Of a DNA stretch of 64,000 nt, positions 6,369 through 62,712 are shown piece after piece. How positions within the stretch are numbered: position 1 is the stretch's first letter; each line of letters starts with the position of its first letter. Source of the DNA: Porphyra umbilicalis (lineage: Eukaryota > Rhodophyta > Bangiophyceae > Bangiales > Bangiaceae). The notes beneath the pieces are model-generated. The model worked only from the letters and a program-made list of their open reading frames with translations. It was not told where the DNA came from and searched no databases. A program made the position numbers and the translations under genes. Where the stretch lies: assembly GCA_002049455.2 (NCBI GenBank), contig KV919041.1, forward strand, positions 40,978 through 104,977, in the 5' to 3' direction.

Positions 6369-6370
6369 TA

Positions 6371-6769: not shown

Positions 6770-6771
6770 TA

Positions 6772-22420: not shown

Positions 22421-22828
22421 GTTGGTGCCCGCTGCAGCCGGTCTTTTCGTCTTTGGCGCGATTGGCTGACGGCACAAACGCCAACGTGGATCGACGCGCA
22501 GCGCAGCGCGCGCGCCTACGTCGGCCTGTACATTGTCGGCATGCAAAAAGGCGCCACGTCGGAGCTCTCCCGCCGCCTCTACGAGCTCGGCGTCAGCGAC
22601 GTGCACATGACCAAGGAGTGGGATTTGTTCGACGCGCTCGACCGCGACGCCGGCGCGGGTGGCGGCCGCCCCGAGCGCACGCCGGTGGTCGACGCGGCGC
22701 GGGGTGCCGCGGGCGCGTGGGAGCCACCTCGCCGGCGGCGGCGCGCGGAGGTGCCCGCTCCCCCCCCCCCCTCCCCCCCCCCCCCCCAACGACCCGTCCG
22801 CACCGCCCCGGGGCGGCGACGGGTTTGA
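22421..22828 (+). pseudogene. Fragment of a sulfotransferase N-terminus (PAPS-binding loop)
   Basis: After TAG 22418-22420 the frame reads WLTAQTPTWIDAQ, AYVGLYIVGMQKGATSEL and then VHMTKEWDLFDALDRD. A hydrophobic strand followed by G-x-Q-K-G-A-T-S, then a KEWDLFD element, is the 5'-phosphosulfate-binding start of carbohydrate-type sulfotransferases (usual form VG-x-x-KGGT, later KE-x-HFF). After about 22750 the frame dissolves into Pro/Arg-rich translation of C tracts (C12 at 22760-22771, C15 at 22773-22787). The 3'-PB region and the remaining 150-plus residues are absent, and no initiator context is seen. It therefore appears to be a truncated or captured host fragment. It abuts the 19-bp satellite on its right. 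Confidence 0.55.
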
Positions 22829-22984
22829 CTTTGAAAAACGGGCGGCGGGGCGGGCGGCGTGTCGGCGCGCCGGCGCGGGCGCCGCCGTCCTCGCCGGCAC
22901 CTCCCCACCCCGCCCCCCTCCCAACCGCGCCGCCCGCGGACCCACGGCGGCAGCGCCCCGCAGCGGCGGATCTCGGCGCCCGCC

Positions 22985-23290
22985 GCGAACTGTCCCCCGG
23001 CTCGCGAACTGTCCCCCGGCTCGCGAGCTGTCCCCCGGCTCGCGAACTGTCCTCCGCGTCGCCAACTGTCCCCCGCGTCGCGAACTGTCCCCCGGCTCGC
23101 GAACTGTCCCCCGACTCGCGAACTGTCCCCCGGCTCGCGAACTGTCCCCCGGCTCGCGAACTGTCCCCCGCGTCGCCAAGTGTCCCCCGCGTCGCCAACT
23201 GTCCCCCGGCTCGCGAACTGTCCCCCGGCTCGCGAACTGTTTCCCGGCTCGCGAACTGTCCTCCGCGTCGCGAACTGTCCCCTCGGGGTG
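22985..23290. repeat. 19-bp satellite, 16 units
   Basis: Units of CGCGAACTGTCCCCCGGCT repeat with exact 19-bp spacing from the AACTGT at 22988 to the one at 23273. A variant has GCGTCGCGAACTGTCCCC. Each unit carries a TCGCGA palindrome. Because 19 is not a multiple of three, all frames read the same 19-residue cycle, which explains the long open frames on both strands. The same unit occurs four times in inverted orientation at 62361-62432. Confidence 0.92.
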
Positions 23291-23520
23291 CCCGACCGTC
23301 CCGCCAGCCACCACAACGGGGCGCCGGCAAAACACCGAAGGCCCCTTGTGCACTCCGCGGGGCTTCAGGCTCGAAGTCCCCCCCCCCCCGCCGCAGGCGC
23401 GCGCCGCGTACCACCACCGCGACATCCCGGCCGTGTCGCCAGCGCGGCGCCAACCAAGTGCCCGCCTAGCGCGCTGAGTGGACCAGCTGGGGGATGTGGC
23501 ATGCCGCAGCCTGCGAGCAT
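23291..23520 (-). mobile_element. Dispersed element end (copy A), joined to the satellite
   Basis: Read on the minus strand from about 23520, this segment matches 62119-62360 on the plus strand, with small indels. Shared phrases include CGCAGGCTGCGGCATGCC, CCCAGCTGGTCCACTCAGCG, GGCGCGCGCCTGCGGCGGGG and GTCGGGCACCCCGAGGGGAC. Both copies pass straight into the 19-bp satellite. It is probably the terminal or subterminal region of one transposon family. Confidence 0.75.
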
Positions 23521-23862
23521 TCATTGGCCACATGAGATTCTTTTATTGAGCGGTGATTGGCTCTGTCACATTGTCCTGCTCAATGTGGAACGATGGGCCC
23601 ACATTCCCCTTTGCATCCAATTCATCGTAGTGATTACTTATTGTTATTTCGGCGCATCTCCCGCCTGACCTCGATTGATCTTATACAAACCGCCACCTGC
23701 CGCCGGTCCCCCACCGGCCGCGACGGGCAACCTTCTTTGATATCTTCACACTCAACGACGACGGGGGCGATATCCAGCGCCTAGCTACCCGGTTGAGCTC
23801 CACTGCGCAGGGACTGCTGTCGAGACCCATCTACAGCAGTCGAGATCCATTGTGCCGGCCGC

Positions 23863-24603
23863 TGCCGGCGCAGTGGGGCTTAGGCCGTGTACCTTACAGA
23901 TCTGCGAATCCTCTGCAATGGCGCGTTGCAGACTGCTTGCAGGTCTGGAAAAGTGGCCGCGTGAGCCACGAGCAGCATGATTTCCTACAGCAGAGATCTG
24001 CGGAGCAGCTCATTGTCGTGCATTTATGCAAAAAAAACGGAGGACCGGTGCTTTTCTTTCATGGAAAGCACCGTGACGGTGCGAGGATCTTGTGACAAAA
24101 AGTTCCAGCGTGATCCCCCGTTTTTTTCTGTCCACGATATGCCTTTATTGTTTTTGACCTGCAGGAAATCTGCTGGTAAAATGTTGCAGGTCGCTGCCGG
24201 ACCCCTGTTGCAGCGCACATTTTCTGTGCCGGGTCTGTGGAAACCTGCAACTGGGCTGCACTTGCAGCGCATGTCTTCAGCATCAAGTCTGCTGCAGAAT
24301 GACGATAACGGCTTCCTATTGGTGGAAGCGAGATAACTCCGCGCCTCCTCGGAGTTATACTAGCGTACAGCAGAAGAACAGCACGAGCTGAGCATCGTCT
24401 CAGCATTTGGATGATCCAGACAAGCAGCGAAAGAGCAGAAAACATGCGTGCCGATCTGCCAGATATCTCTTGAGCCAGCAGGCTGCCAGCACAAAATGGC
24501 CCGACCTGCAGCCATTTGGCAGACTGTGGAGATCCTGCAACAGCCTGCAACACGGAATCAGCAGATCCGTAAGGTACACGGTCTAAGCCCCACTGCGCGG
24601 GCA
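23863..24603. mobile_element. Non-autonomous TIR element of about 740 bp
   Basis: The left end TGCCGGCGCAGTGGGGCTTA, continuing to GGCCGTGTACCTTACAGATCTGC, matches the reverse complement of the right end over about 43 bases with three mismatches. TGCAG/CTGCA motifs are densely repeated inside, like subterminal repeats. No transposase is encoded. A perfect 9-bp-stem hairpin (ATAACTCCG, 8-base loop, CGGAGTTAT) lies at about 24333-24358. No clean target duplication was found, so the superfamily is open. The internal CAGTGGGG would suit a hAT end only if the TIR begins there. Confidence 0.7.
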
Positions 24604-24884
24604 TGGCGGGGAGCACCGTGCAACGGCCCGCCCGTGACGGGAATGCACCCCGGCAAGATTACAGGCACTGGGGGTAGACGACTTGTGGGGAGAGTATTAA
24701 TAGCCATTGAAGGTATGGAGGAGGGGCAGAGTGTCAGCACGTGGGGAAATTGGCGGCCGGAAGGTTCCCCGCTGGGCGAAAGTCTGGCGTGGGGAGAGTG
24801 AGATATGTTGGTGGGCGCGCTGCGCCCAGCCACACGTCGGAATACAAGTGACGCGTTCGTGTGACAACCGCCCGTACTCCCACC

Positions 24885-25214
24885 ATGCCAACAAGCGGCT
24901 CTGCTCTGCGGCGGCGCCGGGACCTCGACGAGGCGCTGGAGCGCCTGGGGCTACCGCCCTCCCCGCCGGCTCTGCGCGCACCGCCCTCGTTCATCAACAA
25001 GGGCAACGCGGCGCACGTCAAGAACTACAAGAAGCGGGGCAAAGAGCGCATGGACCAAGATGAGGAGCGCATCCGCGCTGCGCTGACGGAGCTCTACCGT
25101 ACGGACCTCCGTCGGGCCGCTACTGTCTACGGATGTCTTTGTGTCCAACAGCCGGCAGCGAAGCGTCTCTGTGCCAACAACGAACGGTGGCCGCCGCCGC
25201 CACAGGGCGGGTAG
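24885..25214 (+). CDS. Short basic/acidic ORF of unknown function
   Basis: From ATG 24885 an ORF of 109 residues begins MPTSGSALRRRRDLDEALER. It continues with INKGNAAHVKNYKKRGKERM and a charged helix (DEERIRAALTELYRTDLRRA) and becomes Pro/Gly-rich at its end. The charged helical part is coding-like compared with the Ala/Arg low complexity that follows. It may be the first exon or surviving N-terminus of an element protein. No family is recognised. Confidence 0.3.
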   Translation: MPTSGSALRRRRDLDEALERLGLPPSPPALRAPPSFINKGNAAHVKNYKKRGKERMDQDEERIRAALTELYRTDLRRAATVYGCLCVQQPAAKRLCANNERWPPPPQGG

Positions 25215-27025
25215 CCGTCCACCGCTTCCGTTTCGCCCCCCGGTCCACCAGCACCTGCGGCAGCGTCGCCGCCGACTTGCACGTTGGCGGATGCGGCGGC
25301 GTGCCCCCCTCACGGTCGGCCGGCACGTGCGATGGCGTCGCGTCCCTCCGGTGCGTCCGCACCTGCGACGACGTCGCCGCCGCGTAGTGCGGCGGCAGCA
25401 CCGGGGGCGTGGCCGCACCCCGGTGCGCCCGCACCTGTGGCGGTGCCGCCGCCTTCTCTTATGGCGGGCGCGGCGGCGGTTGCGACGTTGGCGCACCCCG
25501 GTGCGCCCGCGTCTGTGGCGGCGTCGCCGGTGCCTGGTGCGGCGGCGGCAATGGCGACTGCACTTATCGGCTGCTGCCGCGGATTAGCAATGGCGGCGGC
25601 AGCCACGACATTCTTCGGCGCTGCCGCCGCTGACACGATCACGGTTGTGGTCGCACCTCTGCCACTTGCAATGAGCGGCCACGGCGGCCGAGGAAGCTGT
25701 CACGGGCAGCGGCGGCGTTTGTGGTGGCGTGCTCACACCGGCGGCTGGCGCGGCTCCGTCCCGAACGGTCCCTCGCTCTGCCCATGTCGGCCTGACCGGC
25801 AGCGGACGCGTTATCAGTGGCAACGGCGGAGGGAACGAATGGGCCGCTATGAAGCGACGGTCGCGGTGGCCTCGTCCATCCTGGAGTGTTTCGGTCGCGG
25901 TGGCTTCTTCTCTCCTTTGCCGCGGCGCGGCGCCGCCGCCCTGTCCGCATCTCAGCGCATGTACGTTAGCGCGCAGCGGTAGCGGGCAGCGTCTGGCGCC
26001 GCTGCGCCGTCGGCTTTATCCATGTCACCTCCACGCTTGTCGCCGTGGCTTCCAATGCCGGTTGGCGGCTGGCGCTCTCCCTAGAGGCTGCACGCGTACG
26101 CGTCCCGCAACAGACACGGTGCGACTACACAATGTCCGCGGAGCGGCTGCGACCATATCCGCCGCGATACCAGTGTCGTGATCGGTCCGAGGGAGCTGTG
26201 ATGGGGACGGGAGGGGGGGTATGGGAGGAGGGAACGGGTGTAGCAGCCTGGTTGTAGGATGAATGTGACTCTCTCTGTTCCTGGCGGCTGGGGGGTGGCA
26301 ACTTCGTCGAGGGTCCTTGTTGATACAAAGAAAACAAACAGTTGTCGGTCATGATGCTGGTACTGGCAGTACCCCTTCTCCATCCGCAAGTACACAAGAT
26401 CCAAACAAAGAGATAATCATACAGAGCAGACAAAGAGCACGGAAAAGATGTCCGTCAAAATGCTCTGATGGAACTACAGCTAAACTCGATGAGGCGTGAC
26501 GTTGCTGCTACCGTCCGAGACCGGAACGGGCGAGCCGCCATGCTCCTCCGCGACGACGCGGACACGCCTAAAACAGACTGCCGCCTACACGCGGTGCACC
26601 TCATTGTCACCGTGCAAGTCATTTTCACCGCCGTGGAAAGGTTGGTCAGTCCCTCCGGCAGCGACGGCAGACGTTGCCGTCGCGGCGCCACCGTTCATGG
26701 CAGCGACGACGCCGCGCACGTCGGCGCCGCGCGCCACACTTTGGGCCCCAACGGGGGCACAAGCCGGAGCCCCATCCTCCCCAGAAGCGCTAGGAATGGG
26801 TCCGCTGGTACACGAGGACAGTGCCTCCCATTCAGCTCCCGTCCGAGAGCCAGTGACGACGAGTTGCACGGCAAATGCGATGATGGAACGTAGGGCCGGA
26901 CGCATCGTAGCCGACATGGCTGAGCACAGCCATTCCTACACGTCGGCGGGAGCGACGGACCCAGTCGTCAGCGTGTAACCGCGCAAGTGCGACTGTACCG
27001 CACCCTTGATGATGTAAGATGACAG
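25215..27025. other. GC-rich low-complexity DNA without a supported gene
   Basis: GTGCGCCCGCACCTG-like and GGTGCGTCCG-like phrases recur between 25290 and 25540, giving Ala/Pro/Arg-rich frames in every register. A conventional mixed-composition stretch (26270-26460) carries no motif. Confidence 0.4.
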
Positions 27026-28532
27026 CTATTGGTCCGCCTCTGCCACCGGACACCAACACAGCTGGACGCTGATGCGGTGCGCAATCTGCAGCGGCGCGGG
27101 GCCGCAGAAATCGCGGTTGGTGAAGACGGCCAGCGGCCGGGCGTAGATTTTGTGCGTGCCGCGCGGCCACAGGTCGTCCTTGCGGACGCAGAAAGTGGGT
27201 ACCTCAGTCCGCTTCTCTCCGGCCGGCACACGGGTGACGCTCTCGGCCGTCGCTCTGCCCCTTCCCTTGCCGTCCACCGTCGGCGGACGCAGCGCGTGCG
27301 CCGCCACACGCTTCGCACGGCCTTTGGCGATGGCCGCCGCGTACATCCTGGAGCGGGGAGCGGTCGCGCCAGGCAGCATGCGAACGGCCTTTGGCTCGTG
27401 GAAGGCGTCGGCGCCGCTGCTGTCACCCTCAGCTGCAGCTGACGCACCAGCGTCATTGTCTTTGTCGCCGCTTGCGCGGGTCGCGCTGGCGACGGCGGCG
27501 ACGTCTGCTGACGAGGCATCGGCGTCCGAGACGTCCCCCTCGACGGCTTGCGCGGCGCGCTGGTTGGCGGCGACGCTCTCTTTGTGCGCGTGCTGCCGGA
27601 GGACGCTGAAGGCCACCTTGCTCGCGCCTATAAGCACGGCCGCCTTGCTGCCCAGCATCTCCATAACGCGCATCGTCTCTTCCACGTCCACCTTTGCGTC
27701 ATGCACGTTACGGCGGAGGCGAGCAACAGAGACGCGGCGCTCCGCCCTCTCCATACCTTACGCTGCCGACATGCTCTGTGAGTTGTTCACGAGGCTCTAG
27801 ATGGTCTCGGGCGTGACTAGCACACAAAAAAAGTCCGTCTTGTCGAGCGCCCGCTTGCACCACTTGCGCACCACGCCACCCTTCTTGTTCAGCCGCCAGC
27901 GGTCGAGCGCGAACGTCTGAGTCCCATAAAGGTGGCCTTGGAGCCCGCACTTGCCGCATATCTTGTGGTGCATGCACTTTAGGTCGACGCACTGCCCACC
28001 TCACCAAATGGATGCCCCTCGCGGAGCGTGCGGCGGCACTGCGTCTGCTTGAGTGGGCAGGTCCGGGCCGTTTGAGAGGCGCCGTCCTCGGGCGCCATGT
28101 ACGAGCAGATGCCGCACTTCATGGTTGCGCGCGTGAAGAAGACCGACGAGCAAGGACGAGAGGTAGTCGGCGGTAGGGACGGCAAGCACGCGGGGGCCGA
28201 CGGCGAGAAGGCGCGCGGAAACGTAGGCATGGACCAGAGAGAAGGAGACGCGAGGGCCGACAGACGGCAAGGAGATGGGCGCTGACGCCGAGTGCGTCGA
28301 CGCAGGGTGAAACGAGAAAGCCAGGTACGGCGACACCAGCGCCACGCCGGCCACCCCCTGCCTCGGACGAGTTGAAGAGATGCACGGGGTGATTGGTAAA
28401 TTTGCGGGTGACGCAGTCGCACACGACTGCAACTGTGGCACCTTTCTCCTGCTGCCGGCAGCAGGCGCCACGGTTATGTAGCCACCGCAGCGCCGCGGCG
28501 CTCGTAAAAGCGGCGCCATAGGCACCGCCCAC
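27026..28532 (-). pseudogene. Relic of a cysteine-rich (zinc-ribbon-like) element protein
   Basis: Coding-like pieces follow each other on the minus strand in changing frames. A segment near 28480-28380 has CCRQQEKG and VVCDCVTRKF. Then ATG 28122 begins MKCGICSYMAPEDG. After a frame change comes QCVDLKCMHHKICGKCGLQG followed by a basic helix (DRWRLNKKGGVVRKWCKRAL). That frame is cut by TAG and TAA stops near 27800-27765 and continues from ATG 27754 as VARLRRNVHDAKVDVEETMR to a stop at 27026. The Cys-x2-Cys and Cys-His clusters suggest two zinc-binding modules. This is probably part of a transposon protein. The exact family is unknown. Confidence 0.42.
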
Positions 28533-31500
28533 ACCCTCAAATCTCGCAGGCTACGCACCGGCCGGGGCCCAAGACGACACTGACATGCATAGCAGGCCGC
28601 CGGTCCTCGAGCCGCCCATACGGGGCCGCCCCGCCGGCCCGTCTCGTGGCGAGAGGACCGAGGGCGCTGCCGCAGGGACAATCCCAATGGAACAGCATTG
28701 CCCACATTCTCTGGGGAGGGGACAGGGGTGCAGTGTGAATCAAAATGCAAAAAGTACTGCCAAAAGGCACCAGCAGGGCAATACCACGAGGGCCGGAGCG
28801 TGTGAGGCACCCCGTTCAATAGTACACCAGGACGACGGCGGAACCCACATTGGGTGGGGAACAGAGCGCGGCTCTCCACCAGTCACAAAACCGCGTCGCA
28901 GACAAAGCGGTCGGTTTCCAGGAGCACCACATTGCGGAACGAACAGCCGACGGCGCCAGGTCAACCCGGTCAGAAGGACCAGCGCGGCCCGGATGTGGCA
29001 GCAGGCGCCAGAGAGCGCGCGCATTACACGGACAATCCAAAAGCCAGTAACAGAGTCAGGCACCGCCATCTGCAGAAGCAAATGTCCTCGCGCAACGGGC
29101 GTCGTTGGCGCCCAAACAGCGTGCGGGATCCGATGGTGCGGCGCAGGGGCTTCAGAGCGTTGTTGAGGGGGGGTCGCCAGGGGGCGAAAGGCAAGCGAGA
29201 AAACTGTCTTGATGGCGTGGTATACAAGGAGATGGTGTTGCTCGCGTGCATGCGCCCAGATCGGGCACCGTCGCGTGCAGGGCTGTCCGTACGCGCAGAT
29301 GGCCAAAGATGCTGCAGCCCTTCGCAGTGTCTGTCTGTGAAAATGCTAACAATCGCAACTCTTCCAGGGACGGAGAGCACGACAAATGCGCAGATGCAAT
29401 CTGATAGGCCGCTTGCCCTCAGTGTGAAGACGATGTCCTTTGGAACATCCCGGCAGCGATTGGTAGATGACGTCGTTACCAGATCATGGCATGGAGGGCA
29501 CCTCGCCAACCAATAAACAACAGAGTAGCTGGGCCTGACGTCCAGCGCTCGGAAGCAACGCGTAAAGGCCGCTCATTGGAAGAAAATACCTCGAGAGTGC
29601 TCGAAATCTAGTGGTCCACTAGTGTTTGGGCAAACCTTCACTCCCGCGGACATGGCAAATTTTGGCAAAGGACCATAGAGCAAGCATGTGCTGACAATTT
29701 GTGCACGAAAAAAAGGGCACCACCTTCCCAATAAACACATGAAAAAGACCCCCATGTAGCCCCCTGTGAGGACAACAGGATTTGGGACACCCCTCATCAA
29801 AGCTGCAGTTAGCACATGAGCCTTGGCGTTGCAAACCCGTAACCCCAAGAACCTGAAAAAGACTGGATCCAAGATTGGGGCTATTTGAGAGGTCCGCAGA
29901 TCAGGGCTCAAAGGCGCGTATTAAGGAGTTGTCAGCGAAGCACGCGTCGTCAGAGGCTCTTTCCATGGAGGCCAGTCGAGAAACTTCTCGTACCTCACGC
30001 CGCCTGCCGCCGTGCAGTGATGCGTCAGTCCTTCAGAAAACGCGCATGTCTCATTTTTGGGACGCGCACAATAAATCATGCTAGTTTTAATGATATCAAT
30101 CATTTACCTGGGAGGTCTCATAAGTTCAATCCCATGGCCGGTATCCAACTTACACTCATGGAGTCTTACACTGCCGGCGTGGACCAACGAGCGAGGGCCA
30201 ATGTGACGGTTATCGATGCTCTGGACAACCGTCATCAGAACCACCATACGCTGTGGTCAAGTCACCGTCGCGGCGGCCGCATTTTCTTCGCCTCCGCTTT
30301 CGCGACGATAGTAGCGTGGGCTCGCGCCACTGCCGCTGCCATCCTCGCGCCAACCATCCAGCTGCTGAAGACCACCAACCACGCCGCCATCATTGCTCTC
30401 GTTGACACTGCCGCCGCCTGCCGCTCGTCCGGGGATGGCGAGCAAAGGGTGGGCACAGGGATGGTCGCCATGGAGCTGACCATCCTGATGATGGGGTGGT
30501 TGAGAACGCGCTCCGTGGGCAGCTGCGTAATGGCCGAGCCGCGACCGGCGGATGCGACGACGATAGCGCCATAGCGCCTGCATATGGGCCGCCACCGCGG
30601 TGGCAACTTCGCCGTGGACGGGGGCCGCCAGCATCGCATCCGCAGACTCGTCGAATGGATCGTCCATCGTGGGAAGAAGACGGTTTCGTCGACGGTGACG
30701 TCGACCATGGACACGGGCGTCACGACGCGCCTGTCGCCGTCACGTAATCACGCCGCGGGGCGCCGACAGGACCTCGTCCCACTGCCCTCTCTGACAGGCC
30801 CACAAGTTTATTCCATCTCCCGGCCTCCGACGTCCCCCGCCCCATGCCGCGAGCACGTACAGAAGCGATCTCCGAGGCTCGGAAACCAGTGCCTGGGGAA
30901 CGCCGCCGCCGTGCCCTGATTGACGCTGTGCGCGCCATAAAGGGCGGCAGCGGAGCGTCCCACCACACACCCAACTTGCGTCGAATGGGGGGTCCTGAAA
31001 CGGTCAGACTCGTTCAGGCTTTTCTGGGTCTCGATAGTGATCGCCGAGATCGTAGACAGCCCCGGAGAGCGCCAGTTTCGGGCCGTATGAGTTGATATAT
31101 GACCATGCCACGTGAGCTCGTTTTCCAAAAGGAACTGAATATGCAACAGCCAATGGCACGCCAGGAAAAAATGGGGAGGAGCAGCGGGTCCGCCCAAATC
31201 GGTGATAAAATGTGGGACGGCGGCGCCTCCCCCCACTTCTGACGCGTAAATGTCGGAGGACTTACTCGATTCAAATTATCTGTATTCAGGTTCTGTCTGA
31301 GCGTTTTTGGGGTCCCCCGCACCATGCACGTAGGATGTTCGGATACTGAGACGAATCTCTGTCCAGACATTACAACTCGAAAGTTGTAGCGACTGGCTAC
31401 TACGGTTTCCTCTGGACGGCTCTCAGCCATCCTTGTAACGATTGGGTATGCGTGCGCCACGTGCACTCACTCTCATCCACACAGCTATCCGCGTCCCACC

Positions 31501-32348: not shown

Positions 32349-33803
32349 TCCGCGCTTGTCTGCAATGCCGCTGTGTTCGGAACAGTCTTAGTTAAGACAA
32401 TCCGTAGCATTTAGGTTGACTGAACAATAGTTTACTCGTGGTCCAGAGGGGCCGCATGACAAATACGTAACTCTAATACTTTCTTGGTTCTTTGGCGATG
32501 CTGTCATCGCCGCTGTCAGGGAGGATGAAACGTCTCGCATGTCAGGCCGTGTGGCCATATTGTTGGTGTATCGGTAAATTTGATCGGAAAGGGCCGGTAT
32601 CCCGATCAATAGTCGGTATCGTCCATTTTCTCAATGGTCGGTACAGGTCTGTAATGTAACAATATTCGTTTTTAATCCTGGGAGAACTCGACCGACGCCA
32701 CACACCAGGCGAGGCACTCACCGATCCCATTAGTCCCCGACCAGATCGACCAGCAAAACAGCCACGATGCAATAATGATCGCACAAGGCACCGGCGTCTA
32801 GTATGCAGGCCCTCGTGCTTCAGTCCAGCTCGCCTCCTCTGCCCAAGCAAGCGTGTCCTCTGCCCTTTCAACAGATGCCTGGGTATCCCCAAGCGGTAGT
32901 GTTGCGGCTGCGGAACTTCCGCTCCACTAAGTTTTCTTTGCGTCATAATGTTGGTAGCAGAGTGGGCGAGCGGTATGTTGTCGATGTATGTGCCTTGATG
33001 TGTGGGAAATGAATGGCGCGCTGTGGTACGCAGGAGTATTATTGGTGGGGAGGCGAAGGGATGGATCCGAGCTTGCCCAGGTCAGACACAGTCGAGGCCG
33101 TGGTGCTTGTAGGGTAGAGTGCAGAGGCGGGAGGTTGGTATGGTCGGGGTCATGCGGTGGCCGTTACACTGTGTGGATGAGGGTGCGGACGCGAGTGGGG
33201 CTCTAACCTCATATGCCACAAAATCGGAAATATTATGAAACGTGAGACAACCGAGATATCGGTACAAAATCGATAAATCGGTTTTCCGATTGGGAAAGAG
33301 CATTCATCGCAATGTTCGGTAAATGCCAATCTTAGTGGCCACGCCCTGATGGTCCAGAAGCACAGAGCGACGGGACAGCTACGCATCGCGCGTTTGCGAT
33401 GAGAACGTCCAGCCGAGCAGCGAGATGCCATTGGCAACACGCCAGGTCTGGCGTCACACCGTCATGTGGACTTCATCCACCTCATCCAGCCTGATCCTGT
33501 GCATTCTATTCCGCGTATTTTACAACGATTTCGGCAACTGAAGTATTATACCTACCGACATTAGGAATGTAACCCCCGCATCCTCATCAAGGAAAGGCAG
33601 ACGTTTTTATCTGGACTCCTAACGCATCAGCCGATGAAAGACGGTATGAAGCAAAAAGAAGACAACAGTGACCAGCTCCGTAAGAGAGGCTCACAAACAA
33701 GAACGCTACTGATCCATGTTCTTCACAACCTAGCTTAGTACCAGTCGCCAAAAATTGGAACGTGATCGGCCGGTAGGAAGAGCATGAGAGGAAAAGTTGC
33801 TGG
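32349..33803. other. AT-richer intergenic DNA with scattered CGGT/ATCGG motifs
   Basis: No gene is supported. Motifs such as TATCGGTA and AATCGG...CCGATT recur at 32570-32650 and 33225-33295, with a small hairpin AATCGG-TTTT-CCGATT near 33276. They may be ends of an old element, but no consistent TIR could be fixed. Confidence 0.3.
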
Positions 33804-34660
33804 CACACTCACTGGCAGAGGTTTACTGTGAAAGCGTGCACAAGTTTTTCACCATTTGCCTGCTCCAGTGAGGTGCCAAGAGCCCCTCTTTCGAATTGCG
33901 AGATAATTCGCCGGATAGTGAAGTGGCCCCCATCCTTCTCTCTCGGTCGCATTCAAATGCTGAATAACGCTACGTGCATGAAACATGGGCCTTTTGGGGT
34001 GCCTGAAGTTGCTGTGGGACCCTCCCCATCCCCAAGACCTAAATTAGAGGCATGTGGTGCATTTATGAGACACATTTCTGACACGTTAGCATATTGCCGG
34101 CACACTCACTGGCAGAGGTTTACTGTGAAAGCGTGCACAAGTTTTTCACCATTTGCCTGCTCCAGTGAGGTGCCAAGAGCCCCTCTTTCGAATTGCGAGA
34201 TAATTCGCCGGATAGTGAAGTGGCCCCCATCCTTCTCTCTCGGTCGCATTCAAATGCTGAATAACGCTACGTGCATGAAACATGGGCCTTTTGGGGTGCC
34301 TGAAGTTGCTGTGGGACCCTCCCCATCCCCAAGACCTAAATTAGAGGCATGTGGTGCATTTATGAGACACATTTCTGACACGTTAGCATATTGCCGGCAC
34401 ACTCACTGGCAGAGGTTTACTGTGAAAGCGTGCACAAGTTTTTCACCATTTGCCTGCTCCAGTGAGGTGCCAAGAGCCCCTCTTTCGAATTGCGAGATAA
34501 TTCGCCGGATAGTGAAGTGGCCCCCATCCTTCTCTCTCGGTCGCATTCAAATGCTGAATAACGCTACGTGCATGAAACATGGGCCTTTTGGGGTGCCTGA
34601 AGTTGCTGTGGGACCCTCCCCATCCCCAAGACCTAAATTTGAGGCATGTGGTGCATTTAT
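33804..34660. repeat. 297-bp tandem repeat, two full copies and a truncated third
   Basis: Copies begin CACACTCACTGGCAGAGG at 33804, 34101 and 34398. They are almost identical: a single A-to-T change (TTAGAGGC versus TTTGAGGC) stands out near the end of copy three. The period of 297 equals 99 codons, so a 301-codon frame stays open through all copies. I regard that frame as incidental. Copy three stops at GTGCATTTAT (34660). The missing continuation, GAGACACATTTCTGACACG, reappears at 36171. Confidence 0.92.
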
Positions 34661-37589: not shown

Positions 37590-37592
37590 GGT

Positions 37593-42698: not shown

Positions 42699-42703
42699 GT
42701 GGT

Positions 42704-42883: not shown

Positions 42884-42889
42884 AGAGGA

Positions 42890-45766
42890 AGACTGTAGGC
42901 GGCGTCTGTAGGCAACGGCGGCCGCGTCGAGGCGAGGGAAACGAGGCGGGCGTCGACGTTGCGGGTCGAGGGCGACGCGGCGGGGGGGGTGGCGGGCAAA
43001 CAAGAAGCGGCGACGGCCGGCGATCCAAATGGGCGGGTCGGGGGTGTGCCAGTCGTGCAAACAACGGGGCTGATGACATCGATCGAGGTTGTGATGGTCC
43101 GTGGCGCGGCAGCGGCTGATCCAAGCGCCAGATGCGGTCGCCTGATGGCCCAACGAGCGACGCGCAGACAGCACCGCGCCGCCAGTCGCTTGACCGACTT
43201 GCTGTCCCCCCGGCCGTGCCAATTGCACGGCGCCGCGCGCGCCGACGCGCCGCTGACGCGCCAACCAAAAGGGCGGGAGGACAGGCCCAGCCGTCGCGCG
43301 GCCGCGCGGCGCTTCCGCCACGCCGGCGGATCGCCGACGACGACTTTCGAGCGCCGGTCCACCCCACCGCGGCAGACGAGCTGCTGCCCGGTGGCCCGTC
43401 CCGTGTCCCCCGCACCGTCACACTGGCGCGCGGCCGTCCGCTCCCCCGCGGGTCGGCGACGCGCTCGCCGCAGCTCGCCCCGCGTTGCACACGGCTGGCG
43501 CCCTAGAGCGTCCAATGGGAGCAGTGCGGCACCCCGCGGGCGGCGCTCGGAGCCGCCGCCGACGTGCCGGCGGTGGCTGGTGGGGGTGGGGCAGACCCCG
43601 CCCGTGTGCGGGAGACGGCGCCGCCGGGCGCTGCCGACGGTCGATGGGGGGAGCGGGGCCCGACCGTCGGCGCGCGTCCACCTCCGCATGGGGCGACGGG
43701 GTGTTGGGGAGGCAACGCTGCCCGACGGGGCCGAGGGGGCGACGGGTGTCCACCCGGCGGTGTCGACGGCGACACGGGCCGCGGCTGCCGTGTCTGGGGC
43801 CGGCGCAGGCCGGTCTCGCTGCCTTGTATGCGTGCCCCTTGAGGAGGGGTGCTGCGCAGGACGATCATGCCCAGGCGGGGGTGGTGGATGGGGGCGGGGG
43901 GGCCCCCCGCACGTCCCGCCAAAGGCGGTCGGCACGCGGGCGGTGGTCACCGCCGCGAGGCGGTGAGCCGCACCGCCCGCGGCGGCGCGGCGGTGACGCT
44001 GCCGCCGCTTTGACAATGTCGCCGCTGCTGTTGCACAGGGGCTCGTCTGAACGAGCAGCGGTCGTACGCGTTTCAGACCGCCAGTGACAGTGTCGACCCC
44101 ACCGCGACGCACGGGGCAACTAAAGCACGGCAGATCTCGGCAGTGAAGTCAGTAGGATTATTGACAGATACAGTCTGCTCAAATTTGCCTGTCGCAGCCT
44201 GAGAGATGTCCTCGTTTCAAAGGAAAGATTGCCATTCACTATCCACCGCGCACGCCTAAAGGTGTATCTCACGATTTAAGACGGTTAGAATAATCGTTTC
44301 TGAGGACTGAGTGTTGCACCAACGGCCACGAAACTTTCGCATGTATAGGATGGTGGGTGGACAGTGCCAAATGGCGCTATGAATTTCGAGTACCTGGGAG
44401 TTGACTGTCGTTGAGTGTCATTCGTGAAGCGCTTGACCCGATCGCGGCGCTCTTATCTCGTGGCGCAACACAGAATTGACAGGTATCGGCTTCCATATCG
44501 AGTGTGCAGGGGACACACTTGCAAGATTCCAGGCACGTACGTGCAATACCCTGGCCTTCAGGGCGGTGGCGCGCTCGGCGACGCATGGACACCGGGTACG
44601 CCGGCCGGCTCCATGGCCGCGAGCACGCACGGGGGCACGTACAGCCACGTTGCCGTGGTGGGGGAGGCGTGGGGCTAGGAAAGGGGTGCCGCCGCCGCCG
44701 CCGCAGTTGCGGCGGCCCGCCGGCGTGGTGCAACGCCTACAGGCGGGGCCGTCACCCCGCCGCGCAGCGCACCCGCGCGCGGCCGACACGGCGCACGGGC
44801 GGGCGGATGGGACCGACCACAGCGCGACCGGGCGCTTCTAACCGCACCGGTAGATGGCGTCAGCAACCGCCGACGCGCTGCCGCCAATGAAGCCGGCGCG
44901 CAGGCACGATCATCCGCGGGTCATCGTGGGCGCTTCGAACACCGGAAGTCGGTTGCCCCGCGCAACTCGAGGCGGTGGGGGGGGGCAGAGGGGCAGGCGC
45001 CGTCCGGGCCCTGTGACCCCTGTGGCAGGACAGCCCTTCTGAGCCACGTAACTATACTTGCTTTTAGCGTCATCGCGACCCTTCCAACGCTGACACGCCC
45101 TCAGATCCGTGAGGACACGAATGCAGACTGCCACCTCTGAGACGGAGAGCAAGTCTCATGATCTAAGTATAAGTGAGCATCACTACACTTTGAGAGCACC
45201 CTGTCGTAAAGGCCAGGGAAATCGGACCCCTGCTGGAGAGCAGCGCTTCACTTTTTGGGTGACTCCTCGGCGCTTCAGACGTGCTTGTTTTTGACAACCA
45301 ACTGGATGGAAGGCGTTCTATGATCAATTGCGACTCCTGTGACCGTCACGTGCAAGCTTTATCGCTGAAGCGCATACGGTACAGGATCAAGCGTTCTGGA
45401 AGTTCCCCTTTATTTCATGCCTATGTTTTTTGCATGAGCTACAAGTCGTCCAGAGATACTTGGAATATAGCATCTAACAATTCACTCTTGGAGCTCTTGA
45501 GTCACTCTTCCTGTCTTTGTGCTTTTTCTCGAACACAGTGCGCCCTTGGCAGCTTGGTGACAGCCTGAAGTCGCGTCGCCGCCATTCGTCTTATTGCGTG
45601 AGATGCACCTTTAGTCAAGACCGCCTCGAGCAGCTCTTTTGGATCTCAGGCCCCAGGCTGTCACCTCATTGGCTCGGTTCAACATTATGGCTTTCTATTG
45701 GCCATCGCAAAAGCTGTCGGCAGAGCTCGAGCTTCATGCACTTACGGCTTCCACGTTGACCACTTT
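42890..45766. other. No recognised gene
   Basis: 43.0-44.1 kb is extremely GC-rich, with long frames on both strands of Arg/Pro/Ala composition and no motif. 44.1-45.8 kb is of ordinary composition and also lacks a supported gene, apart from the transposase relic that starts at 45767 on the minus strand. Confidence 0.4.
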
Positions 45767-49356: not shown

Positions 49357-49375
49357 GGGGGGGGGGGGGGGGGGG
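49357..49375. repeat. G19 homopolymer
   Basis: A pure G run between two transposon relics. It has no associated gene start. Confidence 0.9.
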
Positions 49376-52260: not shown

Positions 52261-52293
52261 GTTTCACGCGACCTGCGGGTCACGGATTGAGAC

Positions 52294-55816: not shown

Positions 55817-57384
55817 TCAGGACAGAGAGGCCTCGATACGGTCCATCGCCACAGCCGAGAATGTAGAGTACGCCAACAACGTCGGTTCCGGTAGCAGGTC
55901 GCCCTCAAGCTCCCGCCTGTTGTTCGAGGATAAATACGTCTCCGTGCGCTGGTAGATAGACCACAAGCCACGCTGGCGAACTCTGGACATGGACACACCG
56001 AGGAGGAGAAGAAGCTGCGTGCCACGGCGCCTCATGCTGTGTGTGCCGATAAATTCTTCATCGGAGCGGTCAAGGCGGTACAGGTGGCACTTTAGCACAA
56101 CGTGGAACCGCAAGTACTGCCACGACTTGTCGTGGTCGATCTGCATGTGGCGCCTGTGCACGTCACCCGTCATCCCGACTTGATTGTGGCGATTCGCGGG
56201 GAAAACGTAACCGTCCTGCAAGCCTCGAACGGACAACCAGACCCTTCAGAAAAAACTCCAGGACACACACTTGGAAGACATAAGGCCGGGAGCGTCCAGG
56301 GAAGAAAAGCAGCACTCGAGGCTAAATAACATAAATTCAGAGTGGGTCTTATGGTTCACGTTCGGCTCTGTCACCGTTGCGTGATCTAGTGGGAAACGAG
56401 GTTCCCTCCGTGGATGAACTGCGTAATGCAGCGATGAGACATCTGGAGACGTGTGCCGCATATTTTCCAACTAAGATGCCTGGCCAGTGGACGACGTTGA
56501 AGCGCACCGTGACGACCTTTTCTGCTTTCGTTCCGACAATGAAGAACCGGAACCGATCATCATCCACCTTCATCAACTCTATCCTGTGTAAGAAAATGAC
56601 AAAGACAATGTCAGTCACCAAGAGCGAGCCAAGAACGGTACTGTCAGAGTCTGTAACTGCGGGGTGTGTGACAGAGAAGGGCTACATGAACACGAGCAGC
56701 ACCGCCACGAACCGTAGCGCGTAGCCAGAGAAAACAAGACGGACAAGCGTACCGCAGATGTGCCAGCTCATTGAATCTCACGCACAAGCTCATGCCAACC
56801 AGCTGAGCTGTGTACACCGCCCACATCTCTGGATCCCACGTCGCCAGCGACTTTCCTAGAAAGTGCTCGTTGTAAAATCTGTCGAAATCCCTACAGCGAA
56901 GGGGATCTACACCCTGCACTACCGTTGTCTCGCGGCGCCGCTTACTCTTGTGGGCGTCCGTGGTGGCATGATTGAGCGGTGACTCTACTGGATTGCCGAG
57001 AGACCCGTTCCACGGGCCAAGCACCTTGCACGATGCAAACTCCCTAGTGAGAGCCGCCATGGTCTTGCGCACCTGGTCCTCCCAGCAGGACCACGGCACA
57101 GATCGGTCAGAGAGGTATGCGTGGATGAGGACATCATACTGAGGTGGAAGGTCACTGAAACTTTCAAAGACGTTGACAATGGCTCTTCCCGCGGGCGTGC
57201 CGTCACGGTAGGAGGCGGAGCCGCCCACCTTTTCAAGGCGCCCGATCGCCGCATACCCTAGGTAGCTGCGAAGCGTGGCGGCGTTGTCGAGCTCCAGTAA
57301 GGAGACGAACCGCTTCGTTTCCGCCATGTTCTCCTTCAGAGTGCGTGAAGCTCGCCCCTCGTCGCTTGTGCGGCCGATATTCAT
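55817..57384 (-). CDS. Crypton-like tyrosine recombinase, spliced
   Basis: Exon 1 (57384-56753, ATG start) encodes an N-terminal helical domain (RTLKENMAETKRFVSLL) and ends AQLVGMSLCVRFNELAHLR, which supplies the first catalytic Arg in the usual R-x-x-E-L-x-x-L-R setting. An intron 56752-56584 (GTACGC to TTACACAG, 169 nt) joins in phase to IELMKVDDDRFRFFIVGTKAEK, the beta-2/beta-3 Lys region. A second intron or gap precedes GYVFPANRHNQVGMTG. The last exon has IGTHSMRRRGTQLLLLLG, the H-x-x-R box, then GLWSIYQRTETYL with the likely nucleophilic Tyr, ending at 55817. All key elements of tyrosine recombinases are visible in order. The second splice junction could not be fixed, so integrity is unproven. 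Such genes mobilise Cryptons through circular DNA intermediates. Confidence 0.65.
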
Positions 57385-57716
57385 GTCCTCTGTCAGTTCG
57401 GCAAGGTCACGGGGAGCGTACCGCCCGTGACGACCTCCACCTCCACACTACAGTGCGCCGCCCCTACCAGATTCCTCAGGCCCCAGCCCGTCGGGCATAT
57501 CCTCAAGGTCGCAGTCGAACATGTCGTATCACATCGTCTGACAGCGCTGCATGAGTCGCGTCAGAGGCAGGTGACGCCATGACGAGCCGGGATAGGGTGC
57601 ATGGACGGATATGGTCGCGGTAAGGAAGACGGCAGTCGATCTGAAGGATTTCCATCCCACGAGTGGTTGCCAAGGGGCTAGAGTGAAAGGGCACGTGGAG
57701 AGAAACGAGTTCTTTG
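57385..57716. other. Short spacer between two element genes
   Basis: No gene or repeat recognised. Confidence 0.35.
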
Positions 57717-59524
57717 CTACCTGCCCGAGGCCGCCTGGGCGGCCTGCAAAGCAACCACACGCCTCAAAATGTGCAGTGGAAGCGGATGTGTGGCCGCAGA
57801 CGGACCGCGTGCCCTTGCCGCCGCCGCACGACGCCGCAGCTTGGAAGCGGAGGTTCCGAGCATCCCCATCGCCCGCATTCTAGATGCCCCCTCACGCGCG
57901 GCGTCAAACGTTAACTCCGCCCACATCTCACGTCGTGCAGCCGCCTGCACTGCCCGCATCTTATCCGAATTAGCTCGTTCCACCTGGGCGGCCAACAGCT
58001 TTCTCTCCTCAGCTTTAGCCTCGCGTGCGCGCTTGCCCGCCTCCTTGGCCTTCCTGGCCGCGGCTTTGGCGGCCGCCTCCCCCTCAACGGCCACCAATAT
58101 CTCGGGCGCGGTCAGGACCGTACCAAGGCCGGCAGTCGACAGCGTCCCGTTGACCACCCGCGCGCACGTCATGTTCTTGCGCACCGAGTGGATGAGGCGG
58201 CGCGTGAGCTTCTCGAGATCAACACTCGTGACCGGAGCGTCGGCGCCCTCGCTCAGCTCCTCCTCAGTCACAACCGTCGGGTCCAGCGGCCACATACCGA
58301 CCCGCCGAAAAGCCGTCGTCAAGGCGGTCACCGTCAAAGCGTCCGATGCGGCCGCCGCAATACATCTCATCAACTCCGGGGTGTTGAACTGCCGCCCAGC
58401 GTATCGACTCTCGGTAGCAATCTCACGCACTCGAGACCGCAGCTTGGGCTGGTACCGTCCAAACGCACTCTTGTTGTCGAGCGCTTGCAATACATGCGAC
58501 ATCTGTGACGGCTCCGCAATCACGTGCACATTTGCGCGCAGGAGGGTAGCAAGCCGGCTAGAGAGAGGTGTACCTTGGCGCCGTCAAGGGATGAAAGTTT
58601 ATCCTCCTGTGTGTAATAGGACCGCACGAAAGCCGCAAAATGCTCCGCCCAAACTTCAAAGACGACCTTGTCAAACCCGGGCGGGGAGCGACGCCACACC
58701 ACAGCCGCGTCGTTCAAGAACGAGGCGAGCGCCGTCTCCTTCTTGATGCCCTCCGGCGACGTCTCTGTGACGACGCTGTGCCCGGCGACTTTGCCATCGA
58801 CGACAATGAAGTAGGGAGCGACCACGCCCGCAGCCGACACACCAAAAGCCGCCGTGCACGCCCCCACCCCTGATGCAAAGGGCGGCAGCAGGACCTCCGG
58901 CTTTGTCATCCCGACCTGGCCAATCACCTCGCTACGCCCCGTCATCGCCGATGTCCGGGCGTGGATATGGGTTTCGTTCATATTCCAAACTTGACGTGGG
59001 GACGTGATTTTGAGGTCCCGGTACAGCAGCGACAGGAGGCCAAACCAGCGAGCCACAACCTCCTGTCTCGCGTTCCGCCCCCGTCCTTCTTCCAAGGTGC
59101 CGACGCGGTACTTTCTCAATTCCGGGTGGAGGAAGCACGTGACCCAGCTGCGGCCGGGCGTCAACTTGCCGTTGAAAAGGGCGCGAGCAGCCGCCTGCCG
59201 CTCCGTCGACATCTCGGACAGGTAGTCACCACAAACTTTGCAGAGCGCCTCGGTGTACAGTCCTCGGCCAATCGTGGCGTTGATGATGAGGTACTTCACT
59301 AGCAGGGACTCCTCCTCGGGAGAAAAAAAGGGCTTGGGACCGCTCCGGCGGCTCACTTCTCTGTTTAGGATGAAGTAGCGGGCCTGCGCGTAAGACATCT
59401 TGAAGCGCTCGGCGAAGGCTTTGGTCGTCAGCCCGCCTTGGCGCACGAGACGCAGTCCCGCGAGCCTAGCTTCGTGGAGGTCTGCGGCGCCAGCGTCCGT
59501 CGCCGAGCTCCAGACCGGTGGCAT
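57717..59524 (-). pseudogene. pogo/CENP-B-type (DDE_1) transposase relic
   Basis: ATG 59524 (MPPVWSSATD) lies just inside a G23 tract, so the longer open frame beyond it is ignored. An N-terminal psq/CENP-B-like DNA-binding part reads LTTKAFAERFKMSYAQARYF and RSGPKPFFSPEEESLLVKYL. The catalytic core starts VWNMNETHIHARTS, where the conserved first Asp of NMDET is Asn. SLDGAKVHLSL holds the second Asp. The frame then breaks at about 58550. The next frame, to 57717, begins LLRANVHVIAEPSQMSH followed by VLQALDNKSAFGRY, the equivalent of the QPLD third-Asp region. It ends with an Ala/Arg/Lys-rich coiled coil (KAKEAGKRAREAKAEERK). Loss of the first acid and a frameshift show that this copy is dead. 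Total length, about 600 residues, fits the family. Confidence 0.72.
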
Positions 59525-59535
59525 GGCGGCACAAA

Positions 59536-59558
59536 GGGGGGGGGGGGGGGGGGGGGGG
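59536..59558. repeat. G23 homopolymer
   Basis: The longest pure run in the window. It lies 12 bases upstream of the start codon of the pogo-type relic (minus strand). Confidence 0.9.
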
Positions 59559-60197
59559 CGGGCGCAGGAAGAACCTTTTGCAGCGGGGACAGGGGGGCTC
59601 ACCGGCCCAATGGGCGTGACAGTGGGGTGGGGGGGTGGGGAGGAGGGAATGGGTCCTCAGCCGGCGTGGGAAAGGACTACCTCGCCACCGGGCGGCGAGC
59701 ACGCGGCGCCACTGGCGACGGAAAGGCTGAAAGAGCGGGCAAGGTGGTCGCATCGCCGATGAGGACGGTCCCCACCGCCAAACACTTCATTAGATCGGTC
59801 ACGAGACGCTGTACTTCACATTCATTTGAGCCTCGCGAGCGCGCCCTTTTTCTCGAGGGCGGCCTCGCGAGGTGCTCAGGGCTCCTTCCCAGGGGTTCTA
59901 CACACGGCTGGCAGGCTCTCGAGTTGGCGCGTTCAACGGTGTGCATCGCTCTTTCGGTTCTCGTCTGGTTGCTTTATGAAAAATGCCGCAGTCAGCGAGG
60001 TGACGCTTTTTCTGGTGCCTTGGAACGCTACTTCATATGTAAACACTGTGGGATTTCCACACGAGCCCGATTTGCTAAAGACTTGCACAGTTGTCAAAGA
60101 CTGGGGTCAGACGGATACAGTAAATCCTCGATGATGGCTCATCCCTACGGCGCGAATTGCACCTGCCAGCACTATTGCCGCAGCCAGTTTTGAAGGC
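59559..60197. other. Intergenic, nothing recognised
   Basis: Open frames only; no motif. Confidence 0.3.
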
Positions 60198-60199
60198 TA

Positions 60200-60371
60200 T
60201 TGCTGTCATCCCAATTTTGGCCGATGTGGTCGAAGTCAAGACAGGCTCTCGGTCAACTGCCCATTGGTCGAACGACTTTATCCGGCTGAATAGATGGCTG
60301 AGAAACTTTTTCGCACAGTTCATCATCCCTCTTGACATCGACGGCATCGGCCAAAATTGGGAATACAGCAA
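60200..60371. mobile_element. 172-bp MITE, third member of the TTGCTG-terminus family
   Basis: The left end TTGCTGTCATCCCAATTTTG, then GCCGATG, is matched by the reverse complement of the right end TTGCTGTATTCCCAATTTTG, then GCCGATG, with two mismatches. TA flanks both sides (60198-60199, 60372-60373). Non-coding. Confidence 0.82.
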
Positions 60372-60373
60372 TA

Positions 60374-62118
60374 CTTCATCAACAATCGTTACCAGAAGCT
60401 GCCCTCCTGATGCGATCAATCAGGGTTGTCAGCGTTTGGTTTGGTTTGCCAAACATGAACGGAATTCAACCTGATTCACTTGAACGCTGGAGCGTTCAGG
60501 TTGAACGCAACATGTCAAAGGGCGTACTTGTTCCGCGTAATACTTAGTGTGCCACGTGTAAAGTAGTTAAGATTGTGCTTGGGGAAGTCGCGTTGTCTGA
60601 CTCGAGCTGCATCGAGCTTGAGTCGCCAAGCCGATGTAGCGTGTGCATAGCAGGCCTGCTGCAGTCCCGGCGACAGAGCCTCGCTTTCCTGCTCCACCAC
60701 CGCCACACAATCCAAACGACAGGTACGAGCCGACGCCGGGGCGACGACGTTGACAACCGCCTGGGCCACCGCGCAGTAACGGAGACGGGGGGACCAAACA
60801 GAAAGGACCAAACACCGATACGTGTAGACGGGGCATTGAGGGCGAGTGGATGCCCCGATGTGTGAGAAGCAGCTTGCTGCACTCCACGCAATCCTGGGTG
60901 CAACCACGACCCATCCATCCTCCAGCCAAAAAGGCTATGATTCACGCACACGGTGACAGTAGATGAATCGATCTACGTACTCAGCGTCTATGGTGCTACA
61001 CAGCCGATTGGCAACAGTTGACATGAAGGAGGGTCTGGGAGCAGAACTCTCAGCGCGACTGACCTGCAGGGGTACAGTCTTTCTCCAATGCTGTCCACCC
61101 TCTATGGCGATCGTACGACCACAAAGTAGCCCACATTTTTCGTGCAGAAGACGATGATCGGGAGCCACAATCGCCTTTGATTGTACCGCAGAGGCCGGTC
61201 GACCGCGTTTGTTGCTATCCCCCCCTGGATAAGAACGGAAGCGACAAGAATGGAGAAAGACTGTATGGCAACGAGGCAGTCAGAGCGGCCGCACAGCGCC
61301 GAACCACCTGGCTGATCAATTTGAAGTGGTCAACGAAAGCTCCTGTCTGCCAGGGCAATTAATCATAAATACAACCAAGTCGTTTGTCGTTTGGTTTGGT
61401 TCGTTTCTTGAAATCAACCTGATTCATCGAACCATCTGTATATTCAACATGAACTTACAACCCTACGATCAATGCAGGTCGGTCTCTGAAATGGTGCTCA
61501 GAGCCTTGCGCGACGTGAGAATGTGCCTTGATCGCCTCTCTGGGGGCGATCGTCGGTCGACTCATTAAAGGCCCACCTGGGCCTATACCGGGTGTGACCA
61601 GGTCGGGGATTGACTGTATCTTCCTCGGTCCGCATGCTCCCGCCCGATGTTGCAGCCGCCCCGCCCCCCTCCCATCCCCGCGATGCCGGTGCTGGCGCCA
61701 CCCCCCGCCCGTCTCGGCCGCACCCCGGCGCTCGGCCCCCCTTGCATGCCGCCTTCCCTTGGTCCGTCCCCCGCTCCATCCCCTCATTGGGTTCCCCCAC
61801 ACGCCGACCCCGTCCGTCGCCGCTGCACCGCCGCCCCCGCCGTCGGGCACATTCCCCGTCCGCCTACCATCGCCCTGGATGCCTCGGGCGCCCCTGGGGG
61901 CCTCGACCGGCCCCGACCCCCACCGTGGCAACCACACGCTTCCGGCGGCGGGGACTGCCGAGGCGGGCAGCCGCCGCTGGCACCGCCCTCACCCCCGCCC
62001 CACTGGCACGCGCTGTTGACGCTGCCGGGCGTGGCGGCAGCCGCCCCCGCCACCCCCCCAACGTGTCGCGGCCGACGCTCGCACGCGTTACCGTGTGCGT
62101 GCGCGCCCGACACGGCCG
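60374..62118. other. No supported gene
   Basis: Similar phrases TTTGGTTTGG and CAACCTGATTCA occur in the same order at about 60438-60475 and 61390-61430, a possible weak direct repeat about 950 bp apart. From 61620 on, the DNA is Pro-coding-biased C-rich sequence without motifs. Confidence 0.3.
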
Positions 62119-62360
62119 AATGTTCGCAGGCTGCGGCATGCCCCACCCCCCAGCTGGTCCACTCAGCGCGCTAGGCAGGCACTTGGTGGGCGCCGCGCTG
62201 GCGACACGTCCGGGATCATCCCGACATGATGTCGCGATGGTGATACGCGGCGCGCGCCTGCGGCGGGGGGGGGGGAACTTTGGGGTGCACAAGGGACCGA
62301 AGGCCCCTTTGGCCTGCGCCCCTTTGAAGTGGCTGGCGAGACGGTCGGGCACCCCGAGGG
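62119..62360 (+). mobile_element. Dispersed element end (copy B), joined to the satellite
   Basis: It matches the minus strand of 23291-23520 phrase by phrase, from GCAGGCTGCGGCATGCC to GTCGGGCACCCCGAGGGGAC, with small indels (for example an extra ATCATCCCG-like insert near 62215). It leads into four copies of the 19-bp unit, as copy A leads into sixteen. Confidence 0.75.
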
Positions 62361-62432
62361 GACAGCTCGCGACGCGGGTGACAGTTCGCGACGCGGGGGA
62401 CAGTTCGCGACGCGGGGGATAGTTCGCGACGG
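62361..62432. repeat. 19-bp satellite, four units, inverted relative to 23 kb
   Basis: Units GACAGTTCGCGACGCGGGG start at 62361, 62380, 62399 and 62418, the last one incomplete. They are the reverse complement of the units at 22985-23290. Confidence 0.9.
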
Positions 62433-62525
62433 TGCCGCCGCCGCCGCTGCCGCCGGCCACGGCGGGCGGGCGGTCTGCGGCCGGCGGCGCGCCGCGGCGG
62501 CGGTGGCGGGGGTGGTGGCTGGGGC

Positions 62526-62712
62526 GTGTCAGCGGAGATCATCGCGTGGGGGCGGTGGCTCGTTGCCACGGCGGGCGTCGACGGCTTTCGACGGCTTTCG
62601 CCTCGACGCCGTCAAGCACATGGCGGCGCCCCTGCATTATGCGCTCGCCTTGGCCTCGGTTGGGGGCGTGCGCACCTTTGCCCTCCGGCCGGCCGGCCAG
62701 CGGCGTGGATGA
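62526..62712 (+). pseudogene. Fragment of a GH13 alpha-amylase carrying conserved region II
   Basis: Frame one reads AEIIAWGRWLVATAGVDGFR. After a 10-bp tandem duplication (GACGGCTTTC at 62580-62589 and 62590-62599) the next frame reads FDGFRLDAVKHMAAPLHYAL. Removing one copy of the duplication would make the two parts contiguous. W-G-x-W-x-V-x-T-x-G-V-D-G-F-R-L-D-A-V-K-H is the region II signature of cytosolic-type GH13 alpha-amylases, and the Asp in RLDAVKH is the catalytic nucleophile. Only about 50 residues of a protein normally over 450 are present. Upstream and downstream is GC-rich low complexity. It lies about 95 bp inside the satellite of element copy B, like the sulfotransferase fragment beside copy A. 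Confidence 0.7.

Follow-up and report, generated by a model that had tools for sequence, protein, structure and literature searches.

The repeat and its two copies in the window

A stretch of 64,000 nucleotides from the red alga Porphyra umbilicalis (contig KV919041.1, here C281, positions 40978 to 104977; hereafter the window) carries two copies, A and B, of a repeat that consists of a leading segment (the lead) and an adjoining tandem array of a 19-bp unit; a fragment of a sulfotransferase (ST) gene lies in the neighbourhood of copy A, and a fragment of a GH13 alpha-amylase gene in that of copy B. The genome searched for relatives of these parts was that of the same organism (83.8 Mb, 665 contigs). 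An earlier note on this DNA had described both copies, with 16 and four array units, respectively; Tandem Repeats Finder (TRF), dissection into units and alignment bear this description out, and its coordinates are correct to within a few bases. The parts of the two copies are the following.

22832 to 22983, minus strand: about 150 bp past the array of copy A, common to C270 and C459/C75; the edge of the shared core lies at 22832
22984 to 23282, minus strand: 19-bp array of copy A, 16 units (ACGCG/AGCCG GGGGACAGTTCGCG), from TRF and unit dissection
23283 to 23522, minus strand: 240-bp lead of copy A, common to C270, C459, C75 and copy B; 144 bp of it also in C47
23523 to 24640, minus strand: outer lead of copy A, common to C270 and C459/C75, split by two insertions
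62118 to 62357, plus strand: 240-bp lead of copy B, differing from copy A by 14 extra bases and further indels
62353 to 62428, plus strand: 19-bp array of copy B, four units in fixed phase, the first of which by definition overlaps the last bases of the lead

Array spans in the window were taken from TRF (22984 to 23282 with 15.7 copies in A, 62358 to 62431 with 3.9 copies in B), while units were counted by dissection. The alignment of copies A and B spans 328 columns at 80%, with an E value of about 1e-86 by local BLAST and of 1.1e-83 in the search of the same genome; judged by it, their relatedness is far beyond chance. Within the leads, ungapped identity is 201 of 224, with three gaps. The end of the lead directly before the array reads CCCCGAGGG at six places (CCCGAGGG in C75), and the outer extent of the lead differs, as it stops at 144 bp in C47, at 240 bp in B and at about 440 bp in C459 (25189 to 25627). 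The outer lead measures about 200 bp in C459, whose homology to copy A stops near 24640; in copy A itself the lead spans 1.36 kb, including the two insertions. The 150 bp past the array are shared by A, C270, C459 and C75 only. The contig ends 1.6 kb from copy B. The C47 lead begins at an inverted repeat (seen by eye), exactly where B has its 14 extra bases. Long open reading frames (ORFs) cross the array, and a coding role for lead plus array was considered; it was rejected since indels of 14, 16, 2 and 1 bp between B, C47 and the others leave no conserved frame in the lead.

The 19-bp satellite at ten places in the genome

The 19-bp unit occurs in two main variants, ACGCGGGGGACAGTTCGCG and AGCCGGGGGACAGTTCGCG. 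A search for a two-unit pattern with at most two mismatches, which more diverged arrays would escape, gave 103 matches in the genome and none in a reversed control; on recount, all 103 fall in ten places. Six of these carry the lead (A with 16 units, C270 with 15, C459 and C75 with 19 each, B with 4, C47 with 36), and four are bare arrays (C30 with 10 units, C42 and C14 with 4 each, C130 with 2). C459 and C75, which are 98% identical over 18.3 kb, were counted as one locus, and once A and C270 are likewise merged, the six lead-bearing places represent four loci. The pattern had no match in viral_contigs or in genome_contigs, Rfam returned no match in the window, and no paper naming the 19-bp repeat turned up in literature searches that were not aimed at the sequence itself.

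The arrays thus stand in three states: element-like in A, C270, C459 and C75, one-sided in B and C47, and stand-alone in C30, C42, C14 and C130. Beyond the whole units, sequence agreement at the four bare arrays extends by only 0 to 7 bases on either side, and at the far side of the copy B array by 3 bases, which suggests joining at short G/C-rich matches, a suggestion drawn from five loci, which are few, and from counts that chance matches inflate. The bare 10-unit array of C30 (L013, 4682 to 4892) adjoins an ankyrin-repeat gene, the coding part of which lies about 100 bp from the array (E 9.4e-11); the frames of the two sides have no simple join. An intron at this site was rejected, as no usable GT-AG pair was seen by eye at the array edges, and when the C30 and C42 arrays were removed in silico some frames were open both with and without the array. 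Among six flank frames submitted to Pfam, those of C47, C42 (two), C14 and one of C30 had no match. The C47 array (L012, 4240 to 4300) terminates in an 18-bp palindrome, GACAGTTCGCGAACTGTC.

Pieces of one sulfotransferase locus recur beside the arrays

The fragment near copy A has a near-identical, intact-looking donor on contig C296.

22486 to 22644, plus strand: ST coding fragment, 151/159 (95%) identical to C296:761-919; the corresponding C270 copy is 154/159 identical

Pfam assigns the C296 frame to Sulfotransfer_3 (E 3.2e-6) and finds nothing on the window fragment. The C296 frame is open, sits at the contig start and is cut by the contig end, but otherwise looks intact; the comparison with an intact gene that the earlier note had called for gave 95-97% with this contig-cut donor. 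On C296 (L048, 1 to 2100) the frame that encodes the ST catalytic part differs from that of an N-terminus resembling a membrane anchor (recognised by eye), which suggests an intron or a frameshift. The note had placed the fragment directly inside copy A; the fragment is real, yet it lies 340 bp past the array and 188 bp outside the edge of the core.

When C296:1-2300 was used as query, 40 of 238 candidates were scored and 102 matches obtained. Besides C296 itself, five matches are 129 bp or longer and at least 89% identical, and all five are on array contigs: C459 and C75 (C296 positions 1675-2091, 94%; hereafter R417), C270 and copy A (761-919, 97% and 95%), and again C270 (635-763, 89%). The remaining rows read as G/C-rich simple matches. 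Hence the expectation that this repeat family accompanies host-gene pieces held for one ST locus, which recurs at array loci in five of five matches among the candidates scored. R417, which derives from the region upstream of the C296 ST frame, is separated by 2 bp from the core edge of C459; relative to the array, it and the 761-919 piece share both side and orientation. The second C270 piece is 6.85 kb off the core, 3' of a TRM2-like frame, so that segments 635-763 and 761-919, contiguous in C296, are 6.85 kb apart on C270 with the TRM2-like gene between them. This gene was rejected as a captured copy, because it is the only close copy found and the next best reaches 40%.

Divergence of the ST piece amounts to 3.1% between C270 and C296, 5.0% between A and C296 and 6.9% between A and C270, that of R417 to 3.4%, and that of the second C270 piece from C296 to 10.9%. 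For the leads the values are 4.6% (A and C459), 5.8% (A and C270) and 7-10% (B and the others), and for the 150 bp past the array 10.5% (A and C459). With the B lead set aside, the leads, ST and R417 fall at 3-7%, which is compatible with one period of copying.

Two weak hints suggest that C296 itself may once have carried an array. On that contig GGGGGACAGAACTGTC is situated 28-43 bp to the left of R417, and GACAGAACTGTC was met once outside arrays in the 211,287 bases examined; furthermore, a 9-mer left of R417 recurs, by eye, at the left edge of C459 (the chance of any shared 9-mer is 0.02), a site short of which the scripted window for shared 9-mers stopped, finding none. Weighing against this is the dissimilarity of the C459 and C296 flanks: a resemblance of the C459 left flank to C296 left of R417 was rejected at a score of 21, compared with a mean of 19.6 and a maximum of 28 in 200 shuffles.

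The GH13 fragment beside copy B

62529 to 62622, plus strand: fragment of a GH13 alpha-amylase gene, containing a 10-bp tandem duplication (62580-62599)

Read across the 10-bp duplication, this fragment encodes EIIAWGRWLVATAGVDGF-RLDAVKHM and matches solved alpha-amylases with E 1.1e-6 over 26 residues; Pfam found nothing on a 41-residue piece from the window. That the fragment lies directly inside copy B, as the note had claimed, stands in so far as the fragment is real; it begins about 100 bp past the array. Its postulated near-identity with an intact amylase gene was not recovered: a PF00128 search of the same genome gave six matches (on C88, C137, C405 and C64), none of them close to the fragment, and two short-protein searches returned only the window itself. 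Because these searches gave no close match, we regard the piece as a gene remnant without a known donor in this genome, and its status as a captured exon as putative. Two other short matches to GH13 motifs in 57001-64000 (at 57707 and 62272) have, by eye, no GH13 context. The arms of an inverted pair (61903-61932 and 62562-62591, 77% of 30) enclose copy B, and the right one overlaps the GH13 piece; both are more than 100 bp outside lead and array, and the pair may be due to chance in G/C-rich DNA.

Surroundings of copy A

The neighbourhood of copy A contains further features, among them two insertions just outside the 240-bp lead on which the earlier note was silent.

19965 to 25562, strand not assigned: 5.6-kb segment duplicated on C270, at 94-95% with gaps
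20818 to 22272, plus strand: 484-amino-acid ORF inside the duplicated segment, with a helicase-associated (HA) domain according to Pfam
23579 to 23751, strand not assigned: 168-bp insertion with TG..CA ends and a 5-bp duplication, CTCAA/TTGAG (by eye)
23866 to 24598, strand not assigned: 733-bp insertion with terminal inverted repeats (TIRs) of 38 bp at 95% or 43 nt at 93% and a duplication, CCG (by eye)

Both edges of the 5.6-kb duplicate fall inside open C270 ORFs of 544 and 605 amino acids, so copy A appears to have arrived with a duplicated fragment that lacks element-like ends; residues 1-141 of the 605-amino-acid protein are present in the window at 90%, along with overlapping repeats. 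The 168-bp insertion is confined to copy A (absent from C270, C459 and C75) and, by its sequence, is like a solo long terminal repeat. The 733-bp insertion, which resembles a miniature inverted-repeat transposable element (MITE), recurs at 96% on C270, and its site is empty on C459/C75.

Relatives of the HA-domain ORF occur on C270, C11, C542, C96 and C317, and of these contigs only C270 bears an array; the HA-domain protein was therefore rejected as the mover, its relatives on C11, C96, C542 and C317 being on non-array contigs. The C270 array is flanked by two related proteins (the 484-amino-acid HA ORF and L011, 1601-3415; 31% over 275 aligned columns), both with a stretch that resembles, by eye, the start of GIY-YIG and has no Pfam support. 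C542 was uninformative as an empty-site reference, since its HA match runs into another dispersed repeat: the 1.2 kb at 32392-33599 of the window is repeated there at 92%, after an incomplete HA-domain match. Adjoining this repeat in the window, at 33797-34660, is a 297-bp tandem repeat (2.9 copies at 99%). Dispersed repeats common to C459/C75 are found at 44526-45220 (88%; also on C42, 83%) and 6369-6772 (90%). The 334-amino-acid ORF at 14957-15958, possibly derived from a transposase, matches HTH_23 weakly, with an E value (4e-5) just under the cut-off. The same genome gave ten matches to light-harvesting genes, and the best solved-structure match of one light-harvesting protein is to algal light-harvesting chains; several of these are of red-algal, cryptophyte and fucoxanthin types, as would befit a host that is probably a red-lineage alga.

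How the repeat may have spread

We suggest, as a reading somewhat better than evenly supported, that a small dispersed satellite-bearing repeat, in element-like, one-sided or stand-alone form, spread together with neighbouring scraps by fragment duplication. The repeat would measure about 1 kb (952 bp in C459), contain the 19-bp array internally and have lost, or never had, clear ends. Its putatively element-like state comprises the lead, the array and 150 bp (A, C270, C459, C75), its one-sided state the lead and an array that runs straight into other DNA (B, C47), and its stand-alone state the array only. Because ends are variable and the A/C270 duplicate breaks inside ORFs, the copies resemble duplicated DNA fragments without fixed ends. 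A likely route would lead through the G/C-rich array, by recombination or break repair there or by reinsertion of circles derived from it. Since donor, orientation and array side are the same, we infer that one ancestral copy in or next to the ST gene was copied onward with differing amounts of that gene; the GH13 piece would be a gene remnant abutting an independent copy, B.

Several points weigh against this proposal. No empty site, as expected of insertion by break repair, was found for any array or lead, and the ancestral composite locus was not found either. Ages are uneven, as seen in the 150 bp past the array, the B lead and the second C270 ST piece. The order of the ST pieces on C270 fits a single ancestral insertion, but the TRM2-like gene must then move as well. 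Moreover, repeated capture by an active element would likewise yield one donor.

The strongest competitor to fragment duplication is a non-autonomous Helitron- or Helentron-like element with a central array and with host-gene pieces at its far end, often truncated. Helitron 3' ends consist of a hairpin and a CTRR terminus. The surroundings of five copies were scanned for exact hairpins (stem at least 7, loop 2-6) situated 5-15 bases before CTRR. Only C459 had any, at four distinct places, of which the one closest to the core edge is 60 bp away from it and falls within R417, while A, C270, B and C47 had none; Helitron ends were accordingly rejected at the core edges of the five copies scanned, and the copies have no common terminus. 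A constant array-side core and a variable far side with gene pieces, as in A/C270 and C459/C75, would nevertheless suit such an element, and PMC12628747 describes, for Helitrons, tandem arrays at the centre of the element, forms that are one-sided or stand alone, and the capture of genes. We consider this explanation a serious but rather improbable one.

Two further explanations are, in our view, unlikely. Arrays might simply lie in gene-rich, G/C-rich DNA, with unrelated decayed genes as neighbours; the GH13 piece without a close donor, the flank frames of C47, C42, C14 and C30 that lack a Pfam match and the C30 array by its ankyrin gene region are what such coincidence would produce. It does not predict pieces of the same ST locus at two independent loci, less than 200 bp from the core, nor that, among the candidates scored, no array-free locus carries any. 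Coincidence is thus already unlikely for ST and possible for B. Equally doubtful is that a new type of element, still mobile and bearing the array, repeatedly copies neighbouring gene pieces at its open far end; it would have sampled the ST locus at least twice (an exon piece and the upstream region) and left bare arrays as abortive or circular products.

The earlier note had proposed a Pack-type transposon with captured exons, the satellite serving as putative transposase binding sites. In Pack-type elements, according to PMC8903248, coding fragments are enclosed by TIRs and target duplications are present. Fourteen inverted pairs occur in 22400-24700 and 15 in 61900-62800, none joining core or lead edges, and the only strong one is the separate MITE-like insertion. 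A scripted test of C459, B and C270 gave exact arms of 11-14 bp, short, G/C-rich and none at edges (for C270, among the first 20 listed). Target duplication was assessed at C459, in a scripted window that missed the true left edge by about 10 bases; the best candidate, a shared 7-mer (CCACAAG), is not flush with that edge and has a chance probability of 0.156. Neither the ST piece nor R417 belongs to the core that A/C270 share with C459/C75; both lie outside it, and neither a second end beyond them nor an opposite end was found. That gene pieces whose donor is 95-97% identical stand beside two independent loci does speak for a Pack-type element, but it was rejected on TIR, ends and fragment position, bare arrays also disagree with it, and the sole real TIR element is a separate insertion missing from C459/C75, so that we deem it highly improbable.

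What survives of the earlier idea is the recurrence of one ST donor. The case illustrates how a satellite as short as this one can arrive at sites with genes, together with scraps of one ST gene region, and offers a small, testable instance of gene-piece shuffling; adjacency of a repeat and a gene fragment is by itself insufficient for calling a capture transposon.

Comparison with known systems

Fragments of segmental duplications may carry minisatellites at their breakpoints. The breaks inside ORFs, the variable extents and the position of the array at or near the edges of B and C47 are alike, while here one donor gene recurs. Pack-TYPE transposons (PMC8903248) are similar in that host-gene pieces, here those of ST, with a near-identical donor elsewhere stand beside repeat copies; here, by contrast, there is no edge TIR and, at C459, no significant target duplication, and the pieces do not lie between two ends. 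The oyster satellite Cg170/HindIII, which is linked to Helitrons, occurs in element-incorporated, one-sided and stand-alone forms (PMC12628747) and thus shares with the 19-bp satellite both its three array states and its dispersal in the genome; it differs from the present case, in which no Helitron termini were found, the unit is 19 bp, the places number ten and the host is photosynthetic. Because the same three states are met there, the Porphyra repeat may represent at most a further case of the Helitron-linked satellite kind.

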